A DNA stretch of 31,207 nucleotides from a virus: the IMG/VR virus record IMGVR_UViG_3300032896_000426, positions 1 through 31,207 of that record. One strand, written 5' to 3'. A program made the translations under genes and the position numbers. This document shows, one piece after another, positions 16,988 through 29,055 of this stretch. The notes beneath the pieces are model-generated. The model was not told the DNA's origin. It searched no databases and saw only the letters and a program-made list of their open reading frames with translations. The stretch's first letter is position 1; each line of letters begins with the position of its first letter.

Positions 16988-17313
16988 CGGGCATCACCGG
17001 CCGCGCCCTCAGCCGACACCCTGAGGACTTCCAGCCCGGAGGCGTGCGCCACCGGCTCGCCGGTGCCGATCATGAACATCTCCGGCACGGTCCACGTGGC
17101 CCGCTCGCTGCCCGACGCCTCAAGGGTCAGGTGGTGGCGTCCCGTGAATCGCCGGTGGACCGCGCTGCATCCATCGCAGCCGGCATCGGCACAGGTGATG
17201 TCCTCGATGTCAGACGGCGTGCTCACCTGCCACTTGTCGGCATCGAACACGAGCGTGGTGCCGTCGGGGATGTGCGCGTCGCCGCTATCCGTGACGATGA
17301 CCGTGATCTTCAT
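16984..17313 (-). CDS. small hypothetical protein in head-completion region
   Basis: The ATG at 17313 overlaps the upstream stop (ATGA) and yields 109 residues starting MKITVIVTDSGDAHIPDGTT. The protein is strand-rich with an acidic character and holds three cysteines (CADAGCDGC) that could bind a metal. Its C-terminus (GLEVLRVSAEGAAGDAR) overlaps the connector start. No family recognised. Precise coupling on both sides supports it as a real late gene, probably a minor head or neck component. Confidence 0.55.
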   Translation of the reverse strand: MKITVIVTDSGDAHIPDGTTLVFDADKWQVSTPSDIEDITCADAGCDGCSAVHRRFTGRHHLTLEASGSERATWTVPEMFMIGTGEPVAHASGLEVLRVSAEGAAGDAR

Positions 17314-17978
17314 GACCAGCTCACCGCCCACGCCTCGTCGATCCGGCACGGCCACGGCGACCAGAGGCCGCCCCACGACCACCAGCCGTCAGGCGTCGCC
17401 AGCACCGCATGCGGGCCGGGCCGGTCCACGCCTAGGATCAGGCCATGGACGGACGGACGATCGCCGACGAGGCCGCCGAGCGCCTGGAGTTGCGCGGCAT
17501 CACCCCGGAACAGGTGCTCACCGATCCGTTCGCCGAGCTGGAGTTCTGCCAGGTCGTCACTCAGATCTGCGAAGACCTGCTCATCCAGCGGGGAGTGGAC
17601 CCGGACACCGGCCAGCCCGGACCGGGCGGTAGCCGCTAGCGCCTCTCCGATCGTCACTCCCTCCTGCCGCGCGCCCGCCAGCGTCCACACCTGTCCAACC
17701 TCGTCCTCGTGCACCCGCTGGCCGACCAGCCGCAGCGACTGGGCTACCGCCTCGAACGCGCACACCGGCAGCACATCGCCGATCGCGAACGACCGCGGCT
17801 TCGCGTGCGCGGCGGGCTTCGCCACGGTCGTGACCGTCGTCGTGACCGTCGTTTTCGTCGTCACCGTGGACGTCGCCGTGCTGCGCTTGATCGTGGTCGT
17901 GTGCTTGGTCGTGGTCGTGTGCTTGCCCGTCGCCGAATGCTTGGCGCTGGAAGTCCACGTGGCCGCCTTCGCGCTCAC
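17310..17978 (-). CDS. protein with Thr/Lys-rich N-terminus and papain-like-fold candidate domain
   Basis: The GTG at 17978 (GTGA overlap upstream) gives 222 residues. Residues 10-55 are a low-complexity Thr/Lys/Val tract built from near-repeats (KHTTT, TVTT). From about 66 on, IGDVLPVCAFEAVAQSLRL places a Cys (C73) at the head of a helix, and GPHAVLATPDGWWSWG places a His (H190) on a strand, the geometry of C39/papain-like peptidase folds. No activity is proven. Residues about 114-178, between the two, are the reverse complement of a coding-like plus-strand ORF (17445-17639) and look like an insertion relative to the usual spacing. If functional it could process a structural or host protein; this is inference. 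Confidence 0.55.
   Translation of the reverse strand: MSAKAATWTSSAKHSATGKHTTTTKHTTTIKRSTATSTVTTKTTVTTTVTTVAKPAAHAKPRSFAIGDVLPVCAFEAVAQSLRLVGQRVHEDEVGQVWTLAGARQEGVTIGEALAATARSGLAGVRVHSPLDEQVFADLSDDLAELQLGERIGEHLFRGDAAQLQALGGLVGDRPSVHGLILGVDRPGPHAVLATPDGWWSWGGLWSPWPCRIDEAWAVSWS
17433..17438 (+). promoter_or_regulatory. TAGGAT -10 element, leaderless-type promoter
   Basis: TAGGAT at 17433-17438 matches the actinobacterial -10 consensus. It ends six bases before the ATG at 17445, a spacing that places the transcription start on the A of the ATG, as in leaderless genes. The -35 region has no clear TTG motif. It lies antisense inside the minus-strand gene at 17310-17978. Confidence 0.4.
17445..17639 (+). 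CDS. possible antisense-encoded small protein
   Basis: This plus-strand ORF lies wholly inside the minus-strand gene 17310-17978. Its 64 residues read like a genuine helical protein (IADEAAERLELRGITPEQVL, FCQVVTQICEDLLIQRGVDP) rather than a shadow. Third-position GC is about 87% (8 of 63 sense codons end in A/T), while the opposing gene's third positions over the same stretch are only about 75% G/C. A TAGGAT -10 element sits at leaderless distance. The simplest reading is a nested antisense gene or an insertion that kept the host frame open. Alternatively it is chance. Function unknown. Confidence 0.4.
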   Translation: MDGRTIADEAAERLELRGITPEQVLTDPFAELEFCQVVTQICEDLLIQRGVDPDTGQPGPGGSR

Positions 17979-18214
17979 CCGGCACGCCCCCTGCCGAGCC
18001 GCACCGGCGCAACCCAGTCGCGCGGGTACTGCCAGCCGCAGTACTTGCAGTACAGTTCCATGGTCGCGCCCGACGGCCGGTTCGGCGGCGGGCTGAGCGG
18101 CTCGCCGTCGTTCGGGCACGCGAGCGGCGGCCGCGACACGAACGCCTCGAACTCCTGATCGGACTGCTTCAGGACGCTGTCCAGGCCCCACCAGGACCCG
18201 GTCTGCTCGCTGAT
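17975..18214 (-). CDS. zinc-ribbon protein with apparent ATC start
   Basis: The frame encodes SEQTGSWWGLDSVLKQ, then PPLACPNDGEPLSPPPN and MELYCKYCGWQYPRDWV. The C-x2-DGEPL and CKYCGWQYPRD segments define a small two-part zinc ribbon I know from actinophage structural operons. The helical SWWGLDS start belongs to the family, but no ATG, GTG or TTG precedes it. An ATC at 18214 lies a few bases after GGTGAGG and is the best start; the next canonical start is a GTG at 18139 (VSRPPLACP), which would cut that helix. The stop overlaps the next GTG (GTGA). Role unknown, probably structural. Confidence 0.6.
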   Translation of the reverse strand: MSEQTGSWWGLDSVLKQSDQEFEAFVSRPPLACPNDGEPLSPPPNRPSGATMELYCKYCGWQYPRDWVAPVRLGRGRAG

Positions 18215-18230
18215 GGCGCCTCACCGCCCC

Positions 18231-18701
18231 TCAGCTGCCCGCCGCGGGCGGCGGCGTGCGCCGCGGCGGCCGCGACACCGCAGGTGCCACGGCAGGCTCA
18301 GGAGGTGCCTCCGGCTCCGGCGGCGCCGCGCCGTCCGTCTGTGCGGGCCCCGGGTCGGCATTCGGGTCGCTAAGGGGCTCCGGCGTGGCGTACTCGCCGG
18401 GCGGCAGCTGCTCAACCTGCTGCGGCGCCGGAGCGCCCTCCGGCGCCTCGTTGCCCACCGGCGGCGACATGGTGCCGTCGGCCGGGTGCTCGACGCCCTC
18501 CACCGGCACGCCGGTACCCGGGTGCACCTGCGCGCCGGCCGGCTCCCGGCGCGCGTCCGCCTCATACGACACCACGCCCTGCCTGTTGATCTTCGGCACC
18601 TGCTCCGCCTCCTCCACATGGTTCGTGCCGCGGCACTCCGGGCAGCACGGCGCGCCAGGCGCCCACTGCGCCCCGCACGCCGCGCACCGCCAGGCAGCCA
18701 C
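18231..18701 (-). CDS. zinc-ribbon protein with Pro-rich C-terminus
   Basis: The GTG at 18701 gives 156 residues beginning VAAWRCAACGAQWAPGAPCC. CAAC and CPEC pairs form a rubredoxin-like zinc ribbon at residues about 6-25. The rest is a Pro/Glu/Ala-rich, probably disordered tail (EAPEGAPAPQQVEQLPPGEY, PPEPEAPPEPAVAPAV). Such linkers are common in capsid-associated or scaffolding-like proteins. It lies immediately downstream of the decoration gene and just before the next zinc-ribbon gene. Function unknown; a capsid-surface or assembly accessory is plausible. Confidence 0.6.
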   Translation of the reverse strand: MAAWRCAACGAQWAPGAPCCPECRGTNHVEEAEQVPKINRQGVVSYEADARREPAGAQVHPGTGVPVEGVEHPADGTMSPPVGNEAPEGAPAPQQVEQLPPGEYATPEPLSDPNADPGPAQTDGAAPPEPEAPPEPAVAPAVSRPPRRTPPPAAGS

Positions 18702-19158: not shown

Positions 19159-20289
19159 CTAACTTGCCTTCGGGCCCAGCACCACGACCGGGCTCACCGT
19201 GCTGCTGTCACTGCTGTTCTCCGGGGTCACCGGTCCCGGAACGAAATACCGGCCATCCACGCGTGCCCGGAACCGGTAGTTAGTGACGTCCTGGACGAAC
19301 CCGGAGCCGCGTCCGGAACGGTCCACCGTCAGCTCCATCCGGTCACCGATCAGGTAATTCCGGAAATCGGCCAGCGCGATATCCCCGGTGTCGCCGAGCG
19401 CCGGTGAATGGTCGGAAACGAACGCGGGCAGCCCGAGAATCGACGGGCCGGTGTCGTGGCCGTCGCCCAGGTTCAGCCACGGGGGCAGCGCCGCCGGGGC
19501 ACCGGCCGTCGCCGCCGAGCCGCCCGGCACCAGGTACGCCTGCAGGACATCGGTCAGCACCGACTCCGACACCAGCCAGCCGATATCGGTGACGCCCGCC
19601 TGCAGCCCCGCCGCGAGCGCCGCCGGGTGAAGCGCGCTGGCCATGCCGGCGATGTCCGCCGACCCCACCGCGCCGGACGCGGCCCGGGCTACCGTCACCG
19701 CGCAGCCGGCGTTCAGCACTCCCTGAGGCTGTCCCGCCCCCGTGCCGCTGATGAAGTAGTCCTCCTCCGCCCAGCTGTAGCCGAGCGCCACCACGCGGGA
19801 GAAGAAGTCGCCGAGCGCCCCGGCCGCGTCGGAATCCAGCTCATCCGGCACCCCGACGAAGGCCGCCAGCTTGTTCGCCTCCAGCAGCACCCGGCCGAAT
19901 GACGGGCTGGACGACGGGATCGACGCGTCATTCTCGGTGAACGCGAACGTGAGGCCGCCGAGCGCCTGGCTGCCGGAATCCTGGGTGGCATTGTCCAGGA
20001 CAGGCACGCCGAGGCGCAGCGACCCCATCGGCAGCACCATCGCCCGCGGCCGGATGACCGCGGGCGTGACGTACGCCATCACCTGGGCGCGCAGCTGCTC
20101 GGGCACCAGGAAACCGCCCTCGGACGGGACGCGTTCCGTCCAGGCGTTCATGATGAACTGCCGCGCCGACGCGTCTTGCTGGTCGTAGACCGCCGCCAGG
20201 AACGCATGCCAGGACCGGGCCCACGGCTGGCCGTCCAGCCGCGCGCCCGGGGCGTCCGCCCTGTAATGCGGCGAGTCGCGCAGATTCAT
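19159..20289 (-). CDS. HK97-type major capsid protein, short paralogue
   Basis: At 376 residues this has the HK97 capsid fold: SEGGFLVPEQLR at the start of the core, LPMGSLRLGVPVLD, ANKLAAFVGVPDELDSD in the spine region, EDYFISGTGAGQPQGVLNAG, and NYLIGDRMEL plus FRARVDGRYF at the C-terminal end. The N-terminal region is only about 50 residues and lacks a delta (scaffold) domain. It aligns end to end with the 505-residue paralogue immediately upstream, and only six bases separate the genes. It could form pentamers or another specialised position in the shell. The ATG at 20289 is the obvious start. Confidence 0.88.
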   Translation of the reverse strand: MNLRDSPHYRADAPGARLDGQPWARSWHAFLAAVYDQQDASARQFIMNAWTERVPSEGGFLVPEQLRAQVMAYVTPAVIRPRAMVLPMGSLRLGVPVLDNATQDSGSQALGGLTFAFTENDASIPSSSPSFGRVLLEANKLAAFVGVPDELDSDAAGALGDFFSRVVALGYSWAEEDYFISGTGAGQPQGVLNAGCAVTVARAASGAVGSADIAGMASALHPAALAAGLQAGVTDIGWLVSESVLTDVLQAYLVPGGSAATAGAPAALPPWLNLGDGHDTGPSILGLPAFVSDHSPALGDTGDIALADFRNYLIGDRMELTVDRSGRGSGFVQDVTNYRFRARVDGRYFVPGPVTPENSSDSSTVSPVVVLGPKAS

Positions 20290-20295
20290 CTCCGG

Positions 20296-21813
20296 TCAGG
20301 AGCCCGTGGTGGTGTCGAGCAGGACGTACGGCGACAGGGTGTTCTCCGATTCGTTCGCCGGGGTGATCGCCGACTGCACCCACGGGCGGCCGTCGAGCCG
20401 CTCAATGACCCGGTAGGCGACCATGTCGTCCTGAAACTTGTACTCGGCAGAGCTGGCCACCTGCATTGCCTGCCGGTCGCCGACCAGGTACTTGGACAGG
20501 TCGTAGAGCCCGAGCGACCCGGCCTGCGTGGTGCTGCTGATCGACGGCACCTTTTCGGAGATGATCCCGGGACGGCCGAACAGGGTGAACGTCCGGCCGT
20601 CCTCGATGCCGCCCGGCGCGCCGTCGATCGCCGACATGCCCGGCAGGAACACCGGAGGCGCGATCGCCGTGCCGCCCGGTGCCACGTTCAGCTGCGCCAG
20701 CTGCGGGATCGTGTCCGGCGCGGCCAGCCACACCGATTTCTTCAGCGACCCGGGCCACATCCGGGAGAACACCGCCGCGATGTCCGCGAACACGATCTCG
20801 TGCGCGGTCGCCGACGACTGCGCCACCGTGACCGCCCCCGGCGCGTTGACCAGGCCGAGCGGCTGGTTGACGCCGTCGCCGGTGATGAACGCCAGGTCGC
20901 GGAAGAAAGCCAGTGCCTGCGGGAAGAACGTGTTGAACCACACGTCCATCGCCGTCACCGAGTCCTGCAGCAGCTCATTCGGGATCTCGGTGTAGGCGGT
21001 GAGCTTGTTCGCGATCAGGACGAGGCGGGAAAACGACGGCGCCGACGTGCTCAGCGCCGCGCCCTCAGCCGTCCACGCGGCGGAAACGCCGCCGAAGACG
21101 CTGCCCACGTGGGTCGTGTCGTCGATCGTGGGCAGCGGCACCCGCAGGCTGTCCATCGGGATCGTGGTCGCCTGCCCGCTGACCACCGACTCCTCAAGCG
21201 TCAGCGCCAGGATCGTCGACCTGAGCGTCTCCGGGACGAGAAAGCCGCCCTCGGCGGGAATCCGCTCGGACATGCCCGCATTCCGGATCTGCAGCGTGTT
21301 CGCGATCTTCGCCTTGAGCGCCAGCAGCCTGGCGGCAAGCTCGCTGTTGCCGTCCCTGGCCGCGACCGCCTCCCCCTTCAGGGTCGCCCAGATGAACTCG
21401 CGCAGGCTGTCGCCGTACTCGGCGTCCTCCAGCTCGGCGCCCATCGCCGTCGCGCTGAACAGGTGATGCTGCTCGAACACCGCCGCCGCGTTCCGCAGCC
21501 GCGACCTCGACAGCGCCTGCTGCCTCTTCTGGCCGCCGAACGCCGCAGCCGCGCCCGGATGCCAGCCCTCTGGCGGCCGCGCGCCGAACCGGTCGGCCTG
21601 GTCGCGCATGAAACCCTGCAGGCCCGCCTGGACCTGCTCGTCAAACTGCTTCCGCAGGTCCCCGCCGTCCGCAGTGCCGGCGAACTTCTCGACGTAGTTC
21701 CTGACCAGGCCGGGGAACGAGCCGTCCTCAAGCACCGCCTTCAGCCGGGGCTTGTCATGGAACAGCTCTTCGAGCTCGTCTGGGGCCTGCGGGGTGGCCG
21801 CTGGGGTTGTCAC
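20296..21813 (-). CDS. HK97-type major capsid protein, long paralogue with delta-like domain
   Basis: The 505-residue protein carries a helical N-terminal region of about 170 residues (KPRLKAVLEDGSFPGLVRNY, helices to about 170), probably the delta or scaffolding domain removed by the prohead protease. The HK97 core follows from about 185: AEGGFLVPETLRSTIL, PMDSLRVPLPTIDD, ANKLTAYTEIPNELLQDS, DLAFITGDGVNQPLGLVNAP, SKYLVGDRQAMQ and AYRVIERLDGRPW. The GTG at 21813 overlaps the protease stop (GTGA). With the protease just upstream this is the main shell protein, probably the hexamer former. Confidence 0.9.
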   Translation of the reverse strand: MTTPAATPQAPDELEELFHDKPRLKAVLEDGSFPGLVRNYVEKFAGTADGGDLRKQFDEQVQAGLQGFMRDQADRFGARPPEGWHPGAAAAFGGQKRQQALSRSRLRNAAAVFEQHHLFSATAMGAELEDAEYGDSLREFIWATLKGEAVAARDGNSELAARLLALKAKIANTLQIRNAGMSERIPAEGGFLVPETLRSTILALTLEESVVSGQATTIPMDSLRVPLPTIDDTTHVGSVFGGVSAAWTAEGAALSTSAPSFSRLVLIANKLTAYTEIPNELLQDSVTAMDVWFNTFFPQALAFFRDLAFITGDGVNQPLGLVNAPGAVTVAQSSATAHEIVFADIAAVFSRMWPGSLKKSVWLAAPDTIPQLAQLNVAPGGTAIAPPVFLPGMSAIDGAPGGIEDGRTFTLFGRPGIISEKVPSISSTTQAGSLGLYDLSKYLVGDRQAMQVASSAEYKFQDDMVAYRVIERLDGRPWVQSAITPANESENTLSPYVLLDTTTGS

Positions 21814-23153
21814 GTGAATGCCTCCTTCAAGGCGTTGCCGAGCTTCTCCAGGTCCACCCCGGAGGTCAGGTTCATGTGCTGGCTGTTGTCCGCGTCCTCA
21901 TCGCCGTGGCCGGCGTCCTTGAGGTGGGCGCGCAGGTGCGCCTCGACGCCCGCGCGGTCGCCGCCGGGGATGTCCGCGCCGGACAGCCTGGCCAGCCCGT
22001 TGTTGCAGGCGTTCACGTTCGCCGGGGCGCCCTTGGTCTTGTGGTGCGGGAACTTGTAGTTGCCCTTCTGGTCATCGGCGTCGTCATCGCCCTCGCGGTG
22101 CGGGGCAGACGCCGCCTCATCGGATTCCCAGGCGTGGCAGTACTCCAGGACCGTGTCGTCGTTCGGCATCGCCGCCACCGCGGCCGGGCCGTCCCACGCC
22201 TCATCGACCGTCGCCGTGTGATGGACCGGGAGCGCCTTGTCGGCCAGCGGCATCGACTCGATGCCCAGCACCCGCCGCCGCGCGCGGTCTCCCGTGGCGC
22301 CGTCGTCCTGACCGTCCTCGTCCGCGCCGTCGTCATCGCCGCTGTCCGGCGAGTAGGTGCCGGAGCCGCCGCAGCCGGGGCACTTCATGCCGTTCTTGCC
22401 GGTGCCCGGGTGCTTCAGCCGCCCGCTGCCGCCGCACGTCTTGCACGGCGCCCCGCCGCCCTCGCCGTCCGCGGCGCGCACCCAGGACGGGACGCGCGCG
22501 AACATCGACAGGTCAAACGACGCGGCCGTACCCTCCGGCGCCGGGCGCTCCAGCAGCCGGTCAGCCAGGCCGGCCTCGACGGCCTCGGCCGCCTTGTACC
22601 AGGTCTCCGCCTGCATCGCATCCCGCCAGCCGGGCGCGGGCTTGCCGGTGTGCGCCGCGTAGATGTCGGCCAGGTTCCCCGACACCTGGTCGAGCAGGTC
22701 CGCGACCTCCCGCATGTCCGCCGCGTTGCCGATGCAGATCCCCGACGCGTCGTGGATCATCAGCATCGACCCCGGGCTGACGACGCGCTCCTTGCCCGCC
22801 TGGGCGATGAAGCTCGCCGCGGACGCCGCCAGGCCGTCCACGACCGTCGTGACCGGGCCCGGGCGCTGCGCGATCGCGTTGTAGATCGCGATCGCGTCGA
22901 AAACGTCGCCGCCCGGGCTGTTGATGTGCACGTGCAGCTCGCGGGACGCAGGGAGCGCGGCGAGCTGCGCCACGAAGTCGCCGGCCGACACGCCGTCGCT
23001 GAACCACGAGCCGCCGATCTCGTCGTACACGTCGACCCGGGCCGGGCCGTCGCCGTCGTCGAGGTTGACGATCCGGTACCAGGGGCGTCCTTGCGCCGCA
23101 GGACGTCCCGCGAGGGCCTTCAGCCGCCGGATCTGCTCGGCACGGTTCATCAT
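21810..23153 (-). CDS. ClpP-type prohead protease with DnaJ-like zinc motif and C-terminal domain
   Basis: The 447-residue protein has a ClpP/S14 protease fold at residues about 25-205: HINSPGGDVFDAIAIYNAI, the catalytic serine in GLAAS (S111) and a histidine in MLMIHDA (H134). Residues 237-266 carry two CxxCxGxG units (C237/C240 and C258/C261), a DnaJ-type zinc motif. The rest (about 300-447) is a conserved-looking domain (PVHHTATVDEAWDGPAAVA, NACNNGLARLSGADIPGGDR) with an acidic linker. It probably matures the capsid by removing the delta-like domain. The ATG at 23153 overlaps the portal stop (ATGA). It is much longer than usual prohead proteases (about 200-250). Confidence 0.87.
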   Translation of the reverse strand: MMNRAEQIRRLKALAGRPAAQGRPWYRIVNLDDGDGPARVDVYDEIGGSWFSDGVSAGDFVAQLAALPASRELHVHINSPGGDVFDAIAIYNAIAQRPGPVTTVVDGLAASAASFIAQAGKERVVSPGSMLMIHDASGICIGNAADMREVADLLDQVSGNLADIYAAHTGKPAPGWRDAMQAETWYKAAEAVEAGLADRLLERPAPEGTAASFDLSMFARVPSWVRAADGEGGGAPCKTCGGSGRLKHPGTGKNGMKCPGCGGSGTYSPDSGDDDGADEDGQDDGATGDRARRRVLGIESMPLADKALPVHHTATVDEAWDGPAAVAAMPNDDTVLEYCHAWESDEAASAPHREGDDDADDQKGNYKFPHHKTKGAPANVNACNNGLARLSGADIPGGDRAGVEAHLRAHLKDAGHGDEDADNSQHMNLTSGVDLEKLGNALKEAFT

Positions 23154-25105
23154 CGGGCCGCTCCAACCGCGTTCCAGGCGGCCAGCCGCCGCCGCAGGTC
23201 ATCCATCCGCGCCGACGGGCCGTCACCGCGGCCTGCGCCGCCCCCGGCCGACGGCGTGAACTGGTGCTCGTGCATGGTTTCCCAGTCGCCGTGATCGGCA
23301 TCGACCGTGCCGATCCACGCCCGCGGCGCCTCACCGAGCTCCGCTTCCGCTAGGTACCGGTGATGACCGTCGATCAGCTTCAAAAGCGGGTCACCCGGCG
23401 TCTTGACCAGCAGCAGCGGCTTGAGTTTCTTGCCCTTCCGGCGCCGCGCCACGAACTCGGCGACGTGACCGGGGTCGGCGCCGTCCATCCACTGCAGGTC
23501 CGGCTCGATGTGCTCCAGCGGCACCCGCACCGGCCCTGTCCAGGTGGCGTGATGCATCCACGCCATCGCGCTCGCCGGATAGTCCTCCGCGACCTGCTCG
23601 AACACCTTCGCGGCCGCGTTCTTGTCCATCACCTGAGGCGCGCCGCCGCCCGCGGGAAGCGCCCGGCGGGGCGCCATGACGCCCAGCGCGCGGGCGTCCA
23701 TGTCCGCCCACAGCGGCGACCCCCACCCGGCCGCGGACCGCAGCGCCCCCTGCGCGGCCGCCGGGGCGGCAGGAGCCGCATCAGTGGCGGCGGGCGCGGC
23801 CAGCGGAGCCGTCCACCGCGGCGGCAGCGCCGGCTGGCTGCTCAGCGTCAAAGCCACCTTCATGTCCGGCAGCCCCACCGCCGCCAAGACGTCGTGCTGG
23901 TCATAGCCCGCCGTCACGAACGCCAGCGCCGCGTTCGCCTTCGCCGTCAGCTCCAGCGCGTCCGCTTCCCGGTTCTCGACGCGCGGGTAGATGAAGTCGA
24001 ACTCCACGTCCTGCGCGGTCTTCCCGAACAGCGGCAGGAACTGGGTGTTGAGGACGTTCCGCCACCGCTTCAGGCGCGGCTCAACCTTCCACGAGGCGAA
24101 AACCTCCTGCCCCGTCTGCGCGTTCGCCCGGTTCACGTCATCCGACACGCCGGTCATGACTTTCGCCATGCCGAGCGCCTCCCGGATGATGTCCCGCATC
24201 GTCTCGCGGAGCTTCGCGAAATCCATGTCCTTAACTGAGGACTTGTCGTTCGGCACCCACGTGACGCCCGCCTCGAGGACCGCGATCCGGTGCGCCCGCG
24301 CGACCCCCCGGTGCGTCTCCCGCCACTGGGACACGATCCGGTTGAACTCGCCTTCCTCGAACGAGTGGTCCAGCTGGATCACGCCGCCCGGCTCCGCGGA
24401 GTTGACGAAGAAGTTCCGGTTCCACTGGCCGGCGTAGTCGGCCGCCTCGATGTCGGTCAGCACCGACTGGACCGGGCCGCAGCCGCCGTACAGGTCCTCC
24501 GGGTCGCTGAACCGGTTGAAAATGACCTCGGTCGGCAGCAGCGGCACCTGCTCACGGCCGTCCGGTGAGGTGTAGATCCAGCCGGCGAGGAACTTGTTGC
24601 GGTCCGGGACCGGCGTCATCCGGTCCGGGCGCACCGGCCACAGCCCCAGCGGGATCTTCGACGCGCCCTCCGCGAAGTCCACGACCCAGTGGCACTTCCC
24701 GGTCTGCGTCATCCAGATGTCCGACAGCTCGAACAGCATGAACCGGTCGAAAATGGGCTTCCTGATGCCGTCCACGACCACGCTGGCGGGCATCTCCAGC
24801 ACGTTCAGCGCCGCGTGCACCGTCACCTGCTTGCGCTGGTCGCTGCCCCGGTCCGACGTCGTGTACCGCTGCTGCGGGCCCGGCTTGCGGAACAGCACCC
24901 AGTCCTGCTCCGCCACCGACTCCGCGATCAGCCCCACATTCGAGCGGACCGTGCCGTTCGTCTTGTAGGTGCGGATCAGCGCCAAGTCCGGGTTCGCGCC
25001 CGCCGTCATCCCCGGGGCAATCATCATCCCGCCGCCCATCGGCACCGGCGCGCTGCCCTGGGCGGCGTTCCGCGGGCCCAGCATCATGCCCAGCAGCGAG
25101 CCCAT
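23150..25105 (-). CDS. portal protein with C-terminal ParB-like domain
   Basis: The 651-residue product starts at the ATG at 25105, which overlaps the upstream TGA. Residues about 40-440 are an HK97-type portal: YKTNGTVRSNVGLIAESVAE, IFDRFMLFELSDIWMTQTGK, FNRFSDPEDLYGGCGPVQS, LRETMRDIIREALGMAKVMT. A Pro/Ala linker leads to a second domain at about 500-610 with VPLEHIEPDLQWMDG, KLKPLLLVKTPGDPLLKLID and DGHHRY (from 579), the pattern of ParB/Srx-like nuclease or NTP-binding domains. The portal forms the dodecameric DNA gate; the ParB-like tail could act on DNA during packaging or after entry. The downstream protease overlaps it by four bases. Confidence 0.87.
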   Translation of the reverse strand: MGSLLGMMLGPRNAAQGSAPVPMGGGMMIAPGMTAGANPDLALIRTYKTNGTVRSNVGLIAESVAEQDWVLFRKPGPQQRYTTSDRGSDQRKQVTVHAALNVLEMPASVVVDGIRKPIFDRFMLFELSDIWMTQTGKCHWVVDFAEGASKIPLGLWPVRPDRMTPVPDRNKFLAGWIYTSPDGREQVPLLPTEVIFNRFSDPEDLYGGCGPVQSVLTDIEAADYAGQWNRNFFVNSAEPGGVIQLDHSFEEGEFNRIVSQWRETHRGVARAHRIAVLEAGVTWVPNDKSSVKDMDFAKLRETMRDIIREALGMAKVMTGVSDDVNRANAQTGQEVFASWKVEPRLKRWRNVLNTQFLPLFGKTAQDVEFDFIYPRVENREADALELTAKANAALAFVTAGYDQHDVLAAVGLPDMKVALTLSSQPALPPRWTAPLAAPAATDAAPAAPAAAQGALRSAAGWGSPLWADMDARALGVMAPRRALPAGGGAPQVMDKNAAAKVFEQVAEDYPASAMAWMHHATWTGPVRVPLEHIEPDLQWMDGADPGHVAEFVARRRKGKKLKPLLLVKTPGDPLLKLIDGHHRYLAEAELGEAPRAWIGTVDADHGDWETMHEHQFTPSAGGGAGRGDGPSARMDDLRRRLAAWNAVGAAR

Positions 25106-25287
25106 CAGGGTATCTCCGTGTCCAGCGGCACCGCGCCGGGCGGATAGGCGCTCTCCGGCAACGGCGGAAGCGGCACGCCCGGCCATGCCATCCGGGGCTG
25201 CGCTTCCAGGTCTTCGCGCATCCTGCGCAGGCGCGGCGATGGGTCGAGAGACAGGTAACCGAAGCCTTGGAGGATGCGCCGCAGCAC
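25105..25287 (-). CDS. 60-residue hypothetical protein
   Basis: The GTG at 25287 follows the stop of the preceding gene by two bases and gives 60 residues starting VLRRILQGFGYLSLDPS. The rest (MREDLEAQPRMAWPGVPLPP) is Pro-rich and ends in an acidic tail. Its TGA overlaps the portal ATG (TGATG), so the two are coupled. No family recognised and too short for a confident role. It may help produce the portal or be a minor packaging protein. Confidence 0.5.
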   Translation of the reverse strand: MLRRILQGFGYLSLDPSPRLRRMREDLEAQPRMAWPGVPLPPLPESAYPPGAVPLDTEIP

Positions 25288-28461: not shown

Positions 28462-28631
28462 CGTGTCGTCCTGCGCCTGCGACCGCCGACTGGTGCTGAC
28501 ACGGACGTCCATCCGCGGCGTCCGGTCCTGGTTCCGGCTGTGGCCCAGACGCGGCCTTTGCCGGTGGCGGGTGCGGACAGGCGGAGGCGGATCGGGCCGA
28601 GCTTTACTGATTCACTGATCCTGAGTGCCAT
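28458..28631 (-). CDS. 57-residue DUF4236-like protein
   Basis: The ATG at 28631 follows an AAGGGA box and encodes MALRISESVKLGP and later GRVWATAGTRTGRRGW and PVGGRRRR. The L-R-x-S-x-S-V-K-L-G-P start and the glycine-rich basic repeats match the DUF4236 pattern seen in actinobacterial genomes and phages. It overlaps the end of the XRE gene by about 20 bases and couples to the next gene by GTGA. It is probably a small beta-rich, possibly nucleic-acid- or surface-binding protein; function unknown. Confidence 0.6.
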   Translation of the reverse strand: MALRISESVKLGPIRLRLSAPATGKGRVWATAGTRTGRRGWTSVSAPVGGRRRRTTR

Positions 28632-29055
28632 CGGGGTTTCCCTTCGCTAGATGGTGCAGGCGCTTCTCGGCTTCCGATAGCCGTTGCACGGCCTGCTTGT
28701 GCAGGACTTCCAGTTCCTCTATGCGCCTGCGGCGGTCATCGGCCTCGCGGCGCAGTGACGCGACGGCTAGCTGTGCGTCGAGTAGCGCCTGCTGTTTCCG
28801 CTCGGCATGCTCGGTGATCAGCTCCGCGAGCGGAACGCCGAGGATTCCGGCGATCTGCACGGCCTGGCCGATCGTCACCGGCTGGTCGCCGATCTCGATC
28901 TTGCCGATCGTGCTCCGGTGGATCTTGCTCCCGGCGCGCGCCATGAGGTCGGCTAGCCGCTGCTGGGTCATGCCGGCCTGCCGCCGGACCTCGCGCAAGC
29001 GCCGGGCGAAAGTCGCGTTCAGGAGAACTGTAGTGTCCTGCACGGGAACCAGCAT
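28612..29055 (-). CDS. XRE-family transcriptional regulator with coiled coil
   Basis: Residues about 15-80 form an XRE/Cro-type helix-turn-helix: FARRLREVRRQAGMTQQRLA, STIGKIEIGDQPVTI and VPLAELITEH. Residues about 82-140 are a long charged coiled coil (LRREADDRRRRIEELEVLHK), suggesting a dimeric regulator. Candidate starts are ATG 29055 and GTG 29043; neither has a strong ribosome site. The gene overlaps the DUF4236-like gene start. It may control the divergent packaging/structural region or early genes, possibly through sites such as the TAAC/GTTA array; that link is inference. Confidence 0.82.
   Translation of the reverse strand: MLVPVQDTTVLLNATFARRLREVRRQAGMTQQRLADLMARAGSKIHRSTIGKIEIGDQPVTIGQAVQIAGILGVPLAELITEHAERKQQALLDAQLAVASLRREADDRRRRIEELEVLHKQAVQRLSEAEKRLHHLAKGNPDGTQDQ

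Follow-up and report, generated by a model that had tools for sequence, protein, structure and literature searches.

The late region of an uncultured phage (record IMGVR_UViG_3300032896_000426, whose 31,207 bases with about 70% G+C are called here the window) contains a small plus-strand open reading frame, P0001, that falls entirely inside a minus-strand gene. As judged from sequence comparison and codon-level analysis, this frame is very probably a real nested antisense protein-coding gene. Together with a survey of related loci, the data suggest with good confidence that P0001 is a strand-inverted cassette gene, placed in register inside a late-region gene of predicted papain/C39-like fold, with a leaderless start and at a site of accessory gene exchange. 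The open frame, its conservation, its substitution pattern and the exchange of inserts are the parts of this reading that the compared sequences evidence directly. The original prediction for this DNA had proposed a nested antisense gene or a true overlapping pair, and that proposal is upheld by the substitutions, the inverted codon composition, the retained start and stop, the predicted fold and the unrelated inserts or tRNA found at the same place in relatives.

Genomic context and host gene

The minus-strand late genes of the window include those encoding a portal, a head maturation protease, two major-head-protein homologues and a tape measure. Two adjacent minus-strand genes, at 19159-20289 and 20296-21813, both match major head protein families, and in the portal gene (23150-25186, minus strand) the C-terminal residues 559-628 match the ParB-like family phrog_1033 (E 5e-6). 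A repressor-like gene at 28612-29055 on the minus strand (PHROG transcriptional repressor, E 1e-11) hints at a temperate phage.

The minus-strand gene that contains P0001, referred to below as the host gene, overlaps with its start the stop of the upstream gene (GTGA) and with its end the next gene (ATGA), two overlaps that give it the appearance of a usual late-operon gene. Its product (P0002) gave no match at a meaningful score in Pfam, NCBIfam or PHROG, and neither P0002 nor a short form of it (L026) matched any of 50,697 phage records. The predicted fold of the host protein matched the C39 peptidase domains of PCAT1 (Z 9.9) and ComA (Z 9.8), the best C39 structure match having 117 aligned residues, an rmsd of 3.2 and about 9% identity (Foldseek E 0.034), and papain-like enzymes came next in the comparison with Z about 9. 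The likeness to these proteases comprises the predicted fold and the order of Cys and then His; however, the C39 domains matched are transporter-linked, and the host protein has no sequence-family match to them. Thus, the protein is predicted to have a papain/C39-like fold, and its putative protease activity is deduced solely from that fold.

In the predicted structure, the variable segment between the invariant Cys and His appears as blocks of pLDDT 39-62 within an otherwise confident domain, and the insert links the helix that follows the Cys-containing part with the strand that leads up to the His. An insertion-like segment between these residues was part of the original prediction, and its length, 56 codons compared with 10-34 codons in 38 distinct relatives, bears this out. 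The features of the locus are collected in Table 1.

Table 1. Positions of the nested gene, its signals and the elements of the host gene in the window.
Feature	Position	Strand	Description
Nested antisense gene P0001	17445..17639	+	64 aa, ATG to TAG
TAGGAT, -10-like element of leaderless type	17433..17438	+	Six bases 5' of the P0001 ATG
Host CTA codon, TAG stop of P0001	17637..17639	.	With 17433-17435, one of the host gene's only two CTA codons
Terminator-like hairpin and T run	17824..17849	+	Downstream of P0001; weak, in the window alone among 15 leaderless-type loci
Host gene (P0002)	17310..17978	-	222-aa Cys/His protein; GTG start at 17978, stop 17310-17312
Invariant Cys codon, candidate nucleophile	17760..17762	-	Invariant in a 41-row alignment of host proteins
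Invariant His codon	17409..17411	-	Invariant in a 41-row alignment of host proteins
Variable segment, probable exchange site	17439..17606	-	56 codons, GLAG to ILG, between Cys and His

Composition and signals of the nested frame

The G+C fractions at codon positions 1/2/3 were 0.75/0.45/0.875 in the plus frame and 0.875/0.45/0.75 when the same bases were read in the minus frame, in agreement with the third-position values of about 87 and 75% claimed at the outset; in 13 other minus-strand genes of the window GC3 ranges from 0.86 to 0.96. The antisense strand was open in the phase of P0001 in 878 of 1028 sampled 60-codon stretches from 11 window genes, and since such openness is common, neither the open state of P0001 nor its length is remarkable by itself. 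The hexamer TAGGAT was present where predicted, and a -35 element sought upstream of it was not found. The TAG of TAGGAT (17433-17435) is the antisense of a CTA leucine codon of the host gene, which has only one other CTA codon, the one supplying the TAG stop of P0001. CTA is rare in the window, with 4 of the 447 leucine codons of 11 other genes.

Conservation and coding capacity

The P0001 family comprises four members: the window, L003, L004 and L005. In the nearest relative (L002/L003, two views of one locus) the frame is kept at the same length with its start and stop, TAGGAT stands at the same spacing, and the amino acid identity is 78% over all 64 residues. The window and L003 show 33 differences over 195 shared bases, and the codon changes were 11 synonymous and 14 nonsynonymous in the plus frame compared with 3 and 22 in the minus frame, so that the codon-substitution check suggested with the original prediction revealed a plus-frame synonymous excess; outside the overlap, the host gene of this pair gave 10/18 and 8/11. 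Evolution was simulated with sense-frame constraint of several strengths or with none, and no constraint yielded the observed plus/minus combination in more than 0.3% of the runs, or in more than 0.2% of them when the plus frame was also intact or stop-free. The pair of the window and L005 also leans to a plus-frame excess (P 0.015 with sense constraint and 0.059 without it). No clear excess was obtained for five further pairs, namely L014-L015 (0.066 with constraint and 0.18 with none), L003-L005 (0.09 and 0.27), window-L004 (0.20 and 0.33), L014-L121 (0.32 and 0.53) and L015-L121 (0.57 and 0.79), and these were counted as neutral, as expected at higher divergence. Purifying selection in the antisense frame is seen for the window and L003, the closest pair and the only one for which the substitution test is strong.

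The claim that the plus frame reads like a helical protein agrees with the AlphaFold model of P0001, in which three helices (residues 6-16, 21-26 and 28-48) and a disordered tail are predicted with a mean pLDDT of 88.3, and the minus-frame reading of these bases is predicted as an unordered loop of the host protein (pLDDT 39-62). P0001 had no family match in Pfam, PHROGs, NCBIfam or PADLOC. A tblastn search of P0001 against the 50,697 phage records gave six matches, all with E 8 and attributed to chance, and in the fold search the best viral match had E 0.59 and the best of two PDB chains compared had Z 3.9. In addition, the profile of the family was not found in any of the 394 genomes of the class of G001, a Kitasatospora genome, in a search run without a positive control. 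The original prediction had also proposed looking for P0001 as a free gene elsewhere; in the viral-contig scans the family was met solely in nested form. As for the suggestion that the nested gene regulates the late operon, the gene itself stands while the regulatory role gained no direct support from the family searches, in which the insert product of another locus (L021) weakly matched an HTH regulator.

Variation of the host gene among relatives

A total of 131 host-gene entries, including the window, were obtained from protein, alignment and DNA-pattern scans of viral contigs and from a scan of genome contigs; L001 and L002, which duplicate the window and L003, respectively, were removed first. 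The GLAG and ILG anchors of the variable region were placed automatically in 110 loci and by hand in 16, and five loci were left out, either cut at contig ends (L025 and L113) or second copies of included contigs (L072, L082 and L131). The 126 loci were collapsed to 65 distinct variable regions, 38 of them short (10-34 residues) and 27 long (36-114 residues), the cut at 36 residues having been set after the lengths were seen. No version placed has a stop of the minus frame within its insert.

A start signal was defined as an antisense ATG or GTG behind TANNNT with a gap of 5-7 bases and followed by an open frame of at least 36 codons. Of the 27 long versions 15 contain it, with a gap of 6 or 7 bases and in a single shared phase, and the 38 short versions contain no such signal. 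The long variable regions contain these 15 signals in 1619 codons, compared with 1 in 6390 flank codons; in a broader control on other open frames of these loci, each 200 codons or longer, 5 were counted over 508,668 bases. Moreover, 14 of the 15 leaderless-type inserts, and none of their 15 flanks, have an inverted composition when read as sense codons, with GC1 exceeding GC3.

A tree was built on the core of the host gene, excluding its variable stretch; it has at least 12 switches between long and short versions and at least 25 changes of insert type, counts that are rough because only 22 of the 62 inner branches are well supported. The 12-member clade of the window (support 100/100) includes four inserts of the P0001 type, three of the WQ type, four others and one empty version (L132), so that the presence of P0001 in the window and the absence of an insert at the same place in L132, within one clade, follow a moron-like pattern. 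The sister pair formed by L004 and L023 carries unrelated inserts with a flank identity of 85%. From these comparisons, the variable region of the host gene is in all likelihood an exchange site for such nested antisense genes.

Some further traits of individual loci were observed. The short version L129 retains the CTA and the RPAGSAP residues of the L012 insert and looks like the scar of a lost cassette; the L019 insert has a duplicated-looking stretch (DAQIH...AQIH) and no clear antisense gene; and the peptide (E/K)VMP recurs in the otherwise differing loops of L007, L016, L018, L029 and L030. The only cellular match of the genome-contig scan was L054, an empty version in Kitasatospora, and the profile of the host-gene family matched one of the 394 genomes of the class of G001 and one of the 394 of its family, in both cases the Kitasatospora G001 itself.

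Content of the inserts

Inserts with a WQ motif are those of L014, L015 and L121, and similar ones were found in L005, as a second antisense ORF, and in L012. The WQ-like products of L012 and L005 match weakly the N-terminal part of the terminase large subunit (phrog_9, E 0.025 and 0.1, respectively), and it is possible, as a lead from matches of this weakness, that the WQ-type products are packaging or terminase mimics. The L021 product is HTH-like, with matches to Pfam HTH_31 (E 0.0015, below its cut-off), to a PHROG transcriptional regulator (E 0.0005) and to a PADLOC control protein (E 0.00016), and no match among PDB sequences. The L008 insert encodes a hydrophobic 38-residue peptide (membrane peptide) and that of L032 a Cys-rich product, and inserts of a single type occur in L006, L020, L023, L028, L031, L056 and L119. 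The phage records gave no match for the products of L021, L015 and L032, and eight partial matches with E 0.6 for that of L119. Several antisense proteins end alike (e.g., GQPEPGGSR) because their reading crosses a conserved host segment before reaching the TAG.

A tRNA-Gly was identified with ARAGORN and Rfam at 3322-3404 of L014, on the minus strand, antisense in the host gene and ahead of the WQ-type ORF. A stretch resembling a T-arm and acceptor was noticed by eye in L013, and ARAGORN and Rfam did not confirm it as a tRNA; a tRNA match in L034 was below the threshold (26.4 bits vs. 29). In L004, L031 and L121 the antisense ORF has no TANNNT element, and the first of these, a relative of P0001, has CAGAAT. 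In the other nine of the 27 long versions (L010, L013, L016, L019, L022, L034, L057, L081 and L087), a mixed remainder, neither kind of antisense ORF was found. L010 has a 35-codon out-of-frame ORF on the sense strand, with a hydrophobic segment and behind AAGGAG, and from this locus the exchange site may also host same-strand genes.

Start signal and alternative explanations

The arrangement TANNNT-N6-ATG is conserved among the relatives. TANNNT without a -35 element is a pattern described in mycobacteria, where it occurs at 76% of antisense start sites and ends about 7 bases before the start (PMC3898074); the spacing of TAGGAT fits this actinobacterial leaderless pattern, which may or may not apply in the bacterial host of the window phage, a host of Kitasatospora/Streptomyces type being a guess from the single cellular match. 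With the nested gene being real, TAGGAT could otherwise act as a Shine-Dalgarno sequence on a longer antisense transcript, since AGGA sits shortly 5' of the ATG and many loci permit both readings. However, it is a rare codon, CTA, that provides the T at the start of TAGGAT; CTA is found at the promoter site in 16 of the 27 long versions and in 1 of the 38 short ones, and the CAT supplying the ATG is found in 14 and none, respectively. The Fisher p values of about 3e-7 exaggerate these associations owing to kinship, and for CTA on independent pairs the median p of 0.25 is not significant. With the common codon CTC the hexamer would be GAGGAT, a Shine-Dalgarno sequence no worse than TAGGAT, so we argue that a T kept in the first place is better fitted by a -10 element. 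In addition, AGGA is absent from TAGAAT (L006) and from TACGTT and TACGCT (L021 and L028). The Shine-Dalgarno reading seems unlikely, and TAGGAT is rather likely a putative leaderless promoter from its sequence pattern; we infer likewise that the bacterial host of the window phage would use it in this way. A conserved terminator 3' of the nested gene was considered and rejected, as it was found in 1 of the 15 leaderless-type loci (the window), in 2 of the 12 other long versions and in 2 of the 38 short ones.

P0001 might also be a chance by-product of an ordinary expansion of the minus-strand protein, as GC-rich coding leaves the opposite strand open; the frequency of open in-phase antisense stretches and the open minus frame in all placed versions would accord with it. 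Against this explanation, already disfavoured and highly improbable in our opinion, stand the plus-frame synonymous excess with a minus-frame deficit, the inverted codon composition, the restriction of the start signals to long versions, the unrelated inserts and tRNA at one site and the confident fold of the plus product only. Selection at the codon level also opposes the idea that the plus transcript is mainly an antisense RNA against the late mRNA, its own or that of a superinfecting relative, with the protein being secondary. This idea draws on the antisense position in the late operon and on the precedent of STnc6030 of prophage BTP1, as described in PMC7067206, but the inserts of close relatives differ wholly and encode proteins or tRNA; it is hence quite improbable, and an RNA role could coexist with that of the protein. 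Finally, the insert could spread by itself as a homing element, like the out-of-frame HNH insertions of phage methylases. Homing would be compatible with the way in which inserts are gained, lost and exchanged at a single position in a conserved gene, and with the host frame left open as in ShiLan (PMC11855218). However, no nuclease or recombinase was found among the scanned products, most of which have fewer than 120 aa and are mutually unrelated, and searches with Rfam for group I or II introns found none in the whole window or, at E up to 1, in the region 17000-18250, which makes a mobile element very unlikely.

Proposed mechanism

According to the preferred reading of a leaderless nested cassette gene, the -10 element TAGGAT would direct RNA polymerase to initiate with the A of the P0001 ATG, and the resulting leaderless mRNA would give the 64-aa three-helix protein. 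The TAG of the promoter and that of the stop are both provided by the host gene through its two CTA codons, which are rare. As the antisense of a GC-rich gene rarely has stops in this phase, the host reading frame would remain uninterrupted, and in the host protein the cassette would form a flexible loop between the Cys and the His. Related phages have other genes or a tRNA at this position, or are empty there, and would be exchanging accessory, moron-like genes. We find it fairly probable that the host gene is a docking site whose codons double as promoter, start and stop of the cassette, and in which inverted genes and tRNA are exchanged and tolerated as a loop. The doubling codons would lie around the catalytic His and in the helix preceding the variable loop, and the cargo would include small regulators, membrane peptides, possible terminase mimics and tRNA, all within one coding sequence. 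Expression in the prophage state may be guessed from the repressor-like gene of the window and from the orientation of the cassette, opposed to the late genes; a prophage-expressed accessory function is accordingly worded here as a tentative guess, albeit a quite conceivable one. It is likewise a guess that P0001 could be a small helical protein aimed at the host or at a competing phage.

Comparison with known systems

Searches of the open-access literature listed no description of antisense genes that are nested within a single phage gene and exchanged there. If the host gene pays almost nothing for an inverted, in-register insertion, because a GC-rich antisense stays open in this phase, GC-rich phages could gain accessory genes at little genome cost, and gene callers may be missing a class of small phage proteins.

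The ShiLan domain, as described in PMC11855218, is an HNH gene inserted out of frame in phage methylase genes with the host frame left open; the hidden gene shares the strand of the methylase gene and encodes an HNH endonuclease of about 160-195 aa, for which leaderless translation was proposed. The resemblance with P0001 comprises the insertion in a phage gene, the open host frame, the loop and a real gene hidden in another frame. In contrast, the genes nested at the present site are antisense, have their own -10-like start, give a product that varies by phage and show no nuclease match. The accessory (moron) loci of prophages are described as small exchangeable genes that have a promoter of their own and run opposite to the lytic genes, and there are also antisense transcripts that target structural genes, such as STnc6030 of prophage BTP1 (PMC7067206); these are, as described there, separate loci or RNA, whereas P0001 lies wholly inside one open coding sequence. 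The antisense overlapping genes of Escherichia coli O157:H7 (PMC9927249, PMC6294744) are likewise protein-coding and antisense in another gene. The cases described there are single, as antisense overlapping genes are usually argued one by one, while here many unrelated antisense genes are exchanged among relatives at one site, and a site with unrelated products and a tRNA allows such genes to be tested comparatively.
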